From Bradyrhizobium prioriisuperbiae (GTDB lineage Bacteria; Pseudomonadota; Alphaproteobacteria; Rhizobiales; Xanthobacteraceae), in NCBI RefSeq assembly GCF_032397745.1, contig NZ_CP135921.1, forward strand, positions 868,001-932,000: a DNA stretch of 64,000 bases. The letters are read 5' to 3'. Shown here piece after piece: positions 1 through 2,695 of the stretch (position 1 is its first letter; every line of letters starts with the position of its first letter). The notes beneath the pieces are model-generated. The model was not told where the DNA came from and did no database searches. It was given only the letters and a program-made list of their open reading frames with translations. The position numbers and the translations under genes are program-made.

Positions 1-908
1 GCCCGGGAGCTCGAGGTATTCACCGCGATCGTTGAGGCGGGTGGCGTATCCGCAGGGGGGCGAACGGTGGGCCTCTCGCCGTCAGGGGCGAGCCGAACGC
101 TTCAGCGACTCGAGTGCCGCTTAGGGGTGCGGCTGCTGGTGCGTGCAAGCCGGGCGTTTCGCCTCACCGATGAAGGTGAGAGCTACTATCGGTCCGGCCG
201 CCGCATATTGAACGACCTTGATGAGGTCGAGCAGACGCTTGGCGATCAAGCAGTGCCGCACGGGAGATTGCGAGTCTCATCGTCGATCACCTTCGGCCGA
301 GTCGCTATTCTTCCGGCGCTCGGCACGTTCCAGCACGCATATCCGGGCATCTCAATGGAGTTGAGTCTCAGCGATCACATCGCCGATCTCAGCGCCGGAG
401 AGGCGGATCTCGCCGTGCGGGTCGGCGATCTTCCCGACAGCGATCTCAAGGCGCGCAAGCTTGGGGAAAGCCGTCGCATCCTCGTGGCTTCGCCGAATAT
501 CTCGCTCGCAGCGGCACACCTATCACTCCAGAAGATCTGACCCATCATAACTGCCTTCGGTTTAGCTTTCGCACCCTACCCGCGACATGGCCATTCCGCC
601 GAGGCGACGAAAACGTCGACATCGACATCGTCGGGAATATCGCTGTCGATAATGGTGACGCAATAATGCAGCTCGCGTTGGCTGGGCATGGCATCGCACG
701 TGTCGGCCATTTCCATGTTAAGCGCGAACTAGAGGCTGGTCGACTCGTGCCTCTGCTTGAGGACTTCGACGCCGGGGAGACTGAGTCCTTTCATGCGGTT
801 TTTGTCGCCGGACAAACTATTCCAGGGAGAGTGCGCGCCTTCGTGGATTTTTTCGCGGGCGCGTTGGGCACCCATGAGCGTGGACGAACGTCGGGATGGC
901 CTCTGTGA
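1..908 (+). pseudogene. LysR-family transcriptional regulator, frameshifted, 5' end outside window
   Basis: A DNA-binding LysR regulator. The first frame, open from base 1, reads a winged helix-turn-helix (EVFTAIVEAGG, then SPSGASRTLQRLE) and the start of the effector domain, and ends at a TGA at 538-540. The rest of the protein continues in the next frame from about base 495: EYLARSGTP, TPEDLTHHNCL, then the C-terminal LALAGHGIAR and RAFVDFF, stopping at 906-908. One missing base (a G at 495/496) accounts for the break, because restoring it gives the expected SPEYLAR. Both halves match the family, so this is either a decayed gene or a single-base sequence error. Its targets are unknown; it could once have controlled the genes further right. 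Confidence 0.85.
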
Positions 909-959
909 GGCAGACGGCTCCTCATCGTGATCTGAATCCAGAGAATAGCGTGTGAACTC

Positions 960-1095
960 AATGCCCCCCCTCGGTGGGCGCACGAAGCGCCTCTCTCCAG
1001 ATTGTCCAACGATGCAGTCCTTTTGCCTGAGAGTTTCCCCGGAGTTGCCCTTCGGCGCCGGCGCGGGAAAGGCCCCTCGCCGATCTCTCCCAACA
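960..1095 (-). promoter_or_regulatory. Glycine riboswitch, first aptamer intact, second aptamer truncated, no downstream gene
   Basis: On the minus strand the sequence has the hallmark glycine-aptamer order: GGGAGAG (about 1085-1091), GCGCCGAAGGGCAAC (about 1045-1059), GGAAACTCTCAGGCAAAAGGAC (about 1018-1039) and CTGGAGAG (about 993-1000). This is the typical alphaproteobacterial form normally found ahead of gcvT. A GGCGC-TTCG-GCGCC hairpin and ACCGAGGGG (about 968-990) look like the start of the second aptamer of a tandem riboswitch, but it breaks off there. Reading leftward, no minus-strand gene follows; the next DNA is the antisense of the broken LysR gene. It is best read as a stranded remnant. 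Confidence 0.82.
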
Positions 1096-1253
1096 TCGTC
1101 TGATCGGACGTTGCGTATTTTCGCGGTGTCGTGTCGTCGTCCCTCCTTGGCAATGGAGCTAGATTGTCGGTCGAGACGAGCGGGTGGAACCACCGCAGGT
1201 TTGGCAGCGAGAGAGTAATACGTCGGCGACTCACATCGGCGATCACATAGCCC

Positions 1254-1736
1254 TTACCTGTCGACCATCCCGTGCTCGCTCGAGAGGTTGAGCCTCATGA
1301 AGACGCTATTCGGATCGAGAATATAGTCACCGAATGGTCCGCAGTTGAGGAATCCGAAGCGAGCATAAAGCGCGCGAGCGGACGCGAACATATCCATCGA
1401 ACCCGTTTCCAGGCAGACACATTGATAGGAACGGGACCGCGCTTCAGCAATCATGTGCGTCAGCAAGGCAGCCGCCACTCCACGACGGCGATGCTCCGCA
1501 GCCGTGTGCATTGACTTTATCTCACCATGAGATCGGTCGAGCTCCTTGAGAGCGCCGCACCCCAGTAGACTTGCCCCATCCCATGCCGTCCAGAGCGTAA
1601 CCTCCGGTGATCGCAGATAACTCAACTCCAGCGCATGAGCGCTTTCAGCGGGCGACCACCTTCTGCAATGCTCGAGGTGCGCCCGAAGAAGCGCAGTCAC
1701 TTCGGAGCTTTGCAGGTTGTCAACGCGGATCTTCAC
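1254..1736 (-). CDS. GNAT-family N-acetyltransferase
   Basis: A 160-residue single-domain acetyltransferase expected to move an acetyl group from acetyl-CoA to an amine. The acetyl-CoA binding motif A is clear (EIKSMHTAAEHRRRGVAAALL, near residues 72-92), followed by ARALYARFGF and a C-terminal DPNSVFMRL typical of the YsnE-like branch. A GTG at 1736 was chosen as the start because AGGAAGG lies 5-6 bases upstream and the protein then begins VKIRVDNLQ like its relatives; longer in-frame starts add a low-similarity tail. It stands alone between the riboswitch remnant and a dehydrogenase on the same strand. Substrate unknown. Confidence 0.8.
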   Translation of the reverse strand: MKIRVDNLQSSEVTALLRAHLEHCRRWSPAESAHALELSYLRSPEVTLWTAWDGASLLGCGALKELDRSHGEIKSMHTAAEHRRRGVAAALLTHMIAEARSRSYQCVCLETGSMDMFASARALYARFGFLNCGPFGDYILDPNSVFMRLNLSSEHGMVDR

Positions 1737-1843
1737 GCTACCTTCCTCGGGCACGGTCAGTATGCGCTCTTCAGATTCATCACATCTCATGAGGGCATAT
1801 TCCGTTCGTGATGTGAATATTGATGAGCAAGATTCCGGACATA

Positions 1844-2695
1844 TCAAGCGAGCTGCTCGTAGACTTGTACAACCGCGGAATCATCGGCTTCTGCAAGTCC
1901 GCGCACGACGGCTGCCTGGAATACCTGCAATGCCGTGGCAGCCAGGAAGGCGGGAACGCCGGCGTCACGCGCAGCATTCAAAACGATCGCAAGATCTTTT
2001 GTGAACAATTTCATTGCGCTTTTGGTGGTAAAGTCGTTGTCGCGCATGCGTGGCGCGCGGGTGGTAAACATAGATGACTGAGCGGCTCCCGCGCCGATCA
2101 CTTCCATCAGCATATCGGGATCGACCCCGGCGGATCTGGCGAACGCAAACGCCTCGGCCGCGGCGACGATATGTACGCCGCACAGCAACTGGTTCACGGC
2201 CTTAACTAGACTTCCTTGTCCGACCTCTGACCCGACATAATAGATCCGCCCGAGGTGCTGTAAAACCGGTGTGGCCTTGGCCAGGGCTTGATTGCTGCCG
2301 GAAGCCATAATGGCGAGGCGACCACCTTCCGCTCCCGCGACGCCGCCGCTCACTGGCGCATCCAAGAAGAGATGGCGGGGTAAAAGCTTCGCCAGCGCAC
2401 GCGCATCGTGTGGCGAGACTGTAGCACCAAGAATCACGAGTCCTTCCGGCGCGAGCCGACCGGCCATTGAGGCGACGACAGCATGGGCTTGGGCCACGTT
2501 GGTTACCATGACGATCGCAACGTCGGCGCCGTCGGCGGCGTTAGCAACAGAATCGGCAGCATGACCGCCAGCGTCCACGAGCGCGGCACATCGGCGATCT
2601 GCAACATCAAAGCCGGTCACGGCAATACCTGCTTGTAGCAGCCTCTTCGTCATTGGAAGGCCCATCGCGCCAAGTCCGATCATCGTGCATTTCAT
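1844..2695 (-). CDS. NAD(P)-dependent beta-hydroxyacid dehydrogenase (3-hydroxyisobutyrate dehydrogenase family)
   Basis: A 283-residue cytosolic oxidoreductase that would oxidise a 3-hydroxyacid to the aldehyde or keto acid, or reduce a tartronate-type semialdehyde. The N-terminal Rossmann motif is MIGLGAMGLPMTKRL. The substrate motif DAPVSGGVAGAEGG (near residue 118) and the catalytic-lysine region GQGSLVKAVNQLL (near 165) are both present. ATG 2695 was chosen because GAGGG sits 6 bases upstream and the Rossmann fold then begins at residue 4. It diverges from an FAH-family enzyme at 2995, suggesting a shared pathway for a small hydroxy or keto acid. The exact substrate cannot be told from sequence; L-threonate and 2-hydroxy-3-oxopropionate types are alternatives. 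Confidence 0.82.
   Translation of the reverse strand: MKCTMIGLGAMGLPMTKRLLQAGIAVTGFDVADRRCAALVDAGGHAADSVANAADGADVAIVMVTNVAQAHAVVASMAGRLAPEGLVILGATVSPHDARALAKLLPRHLFLDAPVSGGVAGAEGGRLAIMASGSNQALAKATPVLQHLGRIYYVGSEVGQGSLVKAVNQLLCGVHIVAAAEAFAFARSAGVDPDMLMEVIGAGAAQSSMFTTRAPRMRDNDFTTKSAMKLFTKDLAIVLNAARDAGVPAFLAATALQVFQAAVVRGLAEADDSAVVQVYEQLA

Follow-up and report, generated by a model that had tools for sequence, protein, structure and literature searches.

In an intact glycine riboswitch, binding of glycine by the aptamers alters the fold of the RNA ahead of the gene. A published survey (PMC6944388) reports 782 singleton glycine switches, 305 of them untyped, and takes as the target whichever gene on the same strand is nearest, up to a distance of 500 bases. 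The same source proposes that tandem switches degrade to functional singletons with the P1 of the lost aptamer, and its treatment of horizontal transfer reports limited evidence for aminomethyltransferases and symporters behind glycine switches, neither of which is the dadA group discussed below. A literature search pairing 'glycine riboswitch' with 'D-amino acid dehydrogenase' found no paper under that wording.

The element analyzed here lies on the minus strand of a window of 64,000 nucleotides (the whole stretch of DNA under study) and is a glycine riboswitch of the known family RF00504. A covariance search of the 64 kb placed an RF00504 match at window positions 1102-1006 (45.2 bits, E = 5.2e-06; curated gathering score, 32 bits), which confirms the first-pass annotation of a glycine riboswitch aptamer on this strand. 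The aptamer (aptamer 1, 1006..1102, minus strand) is preceded by a leader (1103..1110, minus strand) with GTCC at 1109-1106, which could pair with the GGAC of the inter-aptamer linker; the letters for the leader-linker pairing of a tandem switch are present. When the element was aligned with ten relatives, the leader GTCC was present in nine (G207 differs) and the linker GGAC in all ten, and both P1 strands of aptamer 1 were retained. Identity to the five closest relatives, counted out of 50 per ten-base bin, was 24 at 1120-1111 and 14 at 1130-1121, so that similarity fades above about 1110. The recognizable element spans about 1110 to 967, not 960 to 1095 as proposed at first.

Aptamer 1 carries two single-base lesions: an additional T next to P1, and a deletion of one base from the GGAGCAA part of its core. 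As the reference for this core we used GCCGA(A/C)GGAGCAA, the pattern of first aptamers in the bacterial family of the host, which is present in 282 of 391 family genomes; the variant with the deletion was found in one, the host genome itself, and in none of the other 390. Across loci L001-L056 the normal core occurred 32 times and the variant once, at the window element. The score of aptamer 1 was also below those of all 17 comparison first aptamers (54.4-70.9 bits, from 16 loci), and low scores occur elsewhere too, the sole RF00504 match of genome G406 reaching 43.1 bits. Given the low score and the core lesions, we infer from the sequence that decay of the remaining aptamer has begun; as the leader, linker and P1 letters are kept and the score is still far above the cut-off, this decay would be recent or incomplete. 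The single-base lesions could also be assembly errors.

The second aptamer was compared with a model of our own (R1), as RF00504 misses most second aptamers of the 16 comparison loci (six above the cut-off, versus 17 first aptamers); for the same reason, the missing RF00504 match for aptamer 2 was dropped as an argument. R1 describes a dadA-type aptamer 2 and the hairpin that follows it; of 27 relatives, 16 went into the model, most of them among the more compact. With the sequence cut at 967, R1 positions 1-37 of 121 matched 1003-967 on the minus strand (44.5 bits, E = 6.4e-13). On second aptamers outside the model, R1 gave 69.1-73.6 bits for three switches of the same genome (one dadA, two SBP5) and 32.9-56.7 bits for six other left-out loci (L011, L015 and L137-L140; 42.2 for L011, a gcvT switch). 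The 5' part of aptamer 2 (967..1003, minus strand) contains the 5' strand of P1, the P3a hairpin and the start of P3 (...CACCGAGGGG), and is then cut. The window element does not have the two complete aptamers of a tandem switch; as first described, its second aptamer begins and then stops.

The point at which it stops was located by comparison with the same five relatives. Identity per bin of 50 was 43, 43 and 49 over 1110-1081, 23 and 22 across the loop region 1080-1061, 50 at 1060-1051, 30 at 1050-1041, and between 40 and 50 in each bin of 1040-971; it then dropped from 45 at 980-971 to 20 in every bin of 970-941. Among the genome matches listed, those of the five best relatives end at 966, whereas many weaker ones already stop at about 986-988. 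Of 48 matching plasmid records, ten were listed; seven of these matches end at 966 and three at 963. Comparison shows a breakpoint at about 966, and this end of similarity to intact switches, at 966 or 963, supports the early proposal that the partner gene was lost by rearrangement.

Alternatively, aptamer 2 might have decayed in place, leaving a degenerate full-length tandem switch that lost its gene alone. With filters off over 700-1300, R1 can be aligned end to end over 1003-887 (40.3 bits), and identity to the five relatives recovers to 30 of 50 at 940-931. Moreover, when the sequence below the breakpoint (the tail) was aligned with the two nearest relatives (L022 and L023) under the two scorings with milder gap costs, it fell in register with p values that, out of 80 comparisons in all, were 0.057-0.073 at length 50, 0.010-0.023 at 60 and 0.017-0.043 at 80 (together 0.010-0.073), and 0.060-0.100 at 100. 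These values could hint that the 3' half decayed and was not deleted. However, the two harsher scorings gave 0.080-0.350 for the same relatives, and p was 0.097-0.870 for L024-L026. A hidden, decayed 3' half was attractive by eye, but shuffles of the mean and best scores over 25 relatives gave p values of 0.14-0.46, and the tests for such a half were not consistent in its support.

Other comparisons bear on the same stretch (909..966, minus strand), which contains no recognizable 3' half of aptamer 2 and no expression platform. A profile of the 3' half gave no match there; with the five nearest relatives as its source, 165 and 100 of 400 shuffles scored at least as high, and with 16 relatives the counts were 378 and 349 of 400. 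The R1 score falls from 44.5 to 35.6 bits when 42 further bases are included (cut at 925, same filters), so that inclusion of the tail costs score. In 601-966, the best matches to ACAGATGGGG, the conserved 3' strand of aptamer 2 P1, carry mismatches at 4 of 10 positions. Together with the fall in identity at 970, these results make decay in place unlikely. In a separate comparison of the tail with the element, no inverted or direct repeat was supported (p 0.13-0.82).

The closest relatives among the matches listed (L022-L026) share 81-86% identity with the element over about 1110-966 and are complete tandem switches in which both CTCTCAGG cores are present. A frame for a dadA-like D-amino-acid dehydrogenase stands behind the switch in L023-L026, and in L022 such a frame starts before the contig ends. 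In L026 (genome G236), where the tandem switch is intact, this frame is interrupted after 220 codons, possibly as a pseudogene or through an assembly error in G236. When the leader, aptamer 1 and the retained piece of aptamer 2 are aligned, the element shares 122 of 142 bases with G243 and 120 of 142 with G168 (5 gap columns each); the values for switches of its own genome are 101/141 for the dadA switch (36 gap columns) and 105/141 (22) and 98/142 (21) for the two SBP5-type switches. The G168 dehydrogenase protein matches Pfam DAO (2.3e-75). The same arrangement, with two CTCTCAGG cores ahead of a gene annotated as D-amino acid dehydrogenase, occurs on the plasmids pWSM4875 (Mesorhizobium, typed as conjugative) and pNK83 (Caballeronia), and on both (L155 and L156, respectively) the switch and dehydrogenase adjoin malate synthase G or RidA genes. 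As the cassette is present on plasmids, its arrival in the host genome and later loss of the gene are plausible. No remnant of the dehydrogenase was found near the element: six matches lie in the host genome and none in the window.

The first-pass annotation had suggested, as one of two possibilities, that a gene of the gcv type was lost. This candidate was rejected, as gcvT is present elsewhere in the genome, at 5.54 Mb together with gcvH and behind its own tandem switch, and as the closest relatives of the element precede a dadA-like gene. The lost partner was probably not a gcv gene.

The host genome contains four other tandem switches, before gcvT/gcvH (5.54 Mb), two SBP5 genes (6.617 and 8.548 Mb) and dadA (8.550 Mb). 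At G000:C1:8546663-8552122 (L002, L004, L013), two tandem switches stand about 2.2 kb apart before the SBP5 and dadA genes, and a third similar copy is found upstream of the other SBP5 gene (6.617 Mb), as if one switch subtype had been duplicated and re-used at transporter genes. We also observed nine RF00504 matches in this genome (9.08 Mb), as compared with two each in its congeners G001 and G002 (about 5.9 and 6.3 Mb).

These copies raise another possible origin, in which the element formerly served the SBP5 transporter gene at genome positions 863607-865175 (minus strand) and was parted from it by regulators and an epimerase-like gene. On the strand of the element, that gene comes about 3.8 kb further down, and two of the genome's own switches do precede SBP5 genes. 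However, the element is closer to a dadA-type switch of another genus (G243) than to either SBP5-type switch of its own genome, and identity between the local SBP5 protein and the switch-linked ones is 28-33%, which makes this origin highly improbable.

Directly below the element, where a tandem switch would have its same-strand gene, lies the antisense of a LysR-type regulator gene (1..908, plus strand, start just left of the window; Pfam LysR_substrate and HTH_1), the 3' end of which faces the riboswitch. LysR homology reaches position 881, and tblastn finds two frames that meet in a single frame change near 495-498, which could reflect a pseudogene or an assembly error. The initial view that no minus-strand gene follows directly, and that a broken LysR gene stands there instead, therefore holds. 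A minus-strand frame over LysR (729-1193), the sole such frame submitted, had no Pfam match. The next minus-strand gene found is epimerase-like (genome 867000-867914, about 1.05 kb below the element); as it lies left of the window and is divergent to LysR, it is unlikely to be a target. Upstream, on the same strand as the riboswitch, are a GNAT acetyltransferase gene (1254..1847, minus strand, start codon uncertain; Pfam Acetyltransf_1, 6.7e-14) and a 3-hydroxyisobutyrate-dehydrogenase-like gene. The best match of the GNAT protein (73%) is an entry labelled as a betaproteobacterial MAG. Synteny by way of the GNAT gene was tried and set aside: of 164 loci with relatives of this gene, the best 80 were compared, and none of them has the switch core motifs. 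Among the matches listed, only the window's own covers the switch together with LysR.

Two terminator-like sites were found on the minus strand, at 633-617 (inside LysR) and at 1386-1371 (2, versus 0.5 expected), and none from 634 to 1370. The lack of a predicted promoter was dropped as an argument: a simple scan finds none here and none in an intact relative, so that the scan is uninformative.

On the survey's model, the element could be a functional type-1 singleton, in which aptamer 1 binds glycine, the piece of aptamer 2 is the ghost aptamer, and the switch controls a minus-strand RNA antisense to LysR. In favor of this, GTCC in the leader, GGAC in the linker and the P1 of aptamer 1 are retained, and there is the terminator-like site at 633-617; a 5-bp AUCUG/CAGAU pairing (1002-998 with 934-930) is also possible by sequence. 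However, the conserved 3' strand of the second P1 was not found in 601-966, the core deletion of aptamer 1 is absent from the 390 other genomes, the region close downstream yielded no gene on the same strand, and the LysR gene is broken. We therefore consider a functional singleton quite unlikely.

Likewise, the first-pass annotation raised co-option as a transcription attenuator or antisense RNA, which is possible but unsupported: no terminator-like site stands between 634 and 1370, LysR is broken, the aptamer core is damaged and the fold is ordinary. The aptamer was no more than ordinarily stable (z = -1.03; 27 of 200 shuffles at least as stable), and the fold of 880-1115 was not unusual (z = -1.41; 17 of 200). 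The predicted P1 probability was 0.18 without the tail, 0.27 with 45 tail bases and 0.00 with 60 or 90; the tail was rejected as a new competitor of P1, with equally low probabilities in 7% and 12% of shuffles. That aptamer 1 still senses glycine and, now fused to a new downstream sequence, regulates either an RNA that runs antisense to LysR on the minus strand or the GNAT transcript at its 3' end is very unlikely; if true, it would be a riboswitch caught during co-option away from its own gene.

Together, these analyses lead us to conclude, with a probability of roughly 85%, that the element is what remains of a dadA-type tandem glycine riboswitch, truncated, without a target and probably without function. 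The starting state would have been a tandem glycine riboswitch before a gene for a dadA-like D-amino-acid dehydrogenase. A rearrangement with one end at about 966 would then have taken away the gene, the expression platform and the part of aptamer 2 beyond the breakpoint, where an unrelated LysR gene now has its 3' end. The remaining piece would have nothing left to switch, so that no function is likely, and its decay would be under way.

The locus is a clear example of riboswitch orphaning, with a breakpoint inside aptamer 2 that can be placed to a few bases; beyond this, the finding changes little. Relics like the window element could be present among the untyped singletons of the survey.

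Three systems serve for comparison. The gcvT switch of the same genome (G000:C1:5543206-5543394) belongs to the same RNA family and, unlike the window element, has both aptamers, with gcvT and gcvH behind them. The type-1 singleton that PMC6944388 describes, with its ghost aptamer, resembles the element in having one recognizable first aptamer and 3' remains of a second; the element differs from it in that a homologous second P1 strand is lacking, with just a possible 5-bp substitute, and in that no close downstream gene was found. Finally, as compared with the dadA-type tandem switch (L022-L026, pWSM4875, pNK83), the window element lacks everything beyond the start of aptamer 2 (the remainder of that aptamer, the expression platform, the gene) and has the core deletion and the extra T in aptamer 1, whereas its leader, aptamer 1 and first third of aptamer 2 align with those of this switch.
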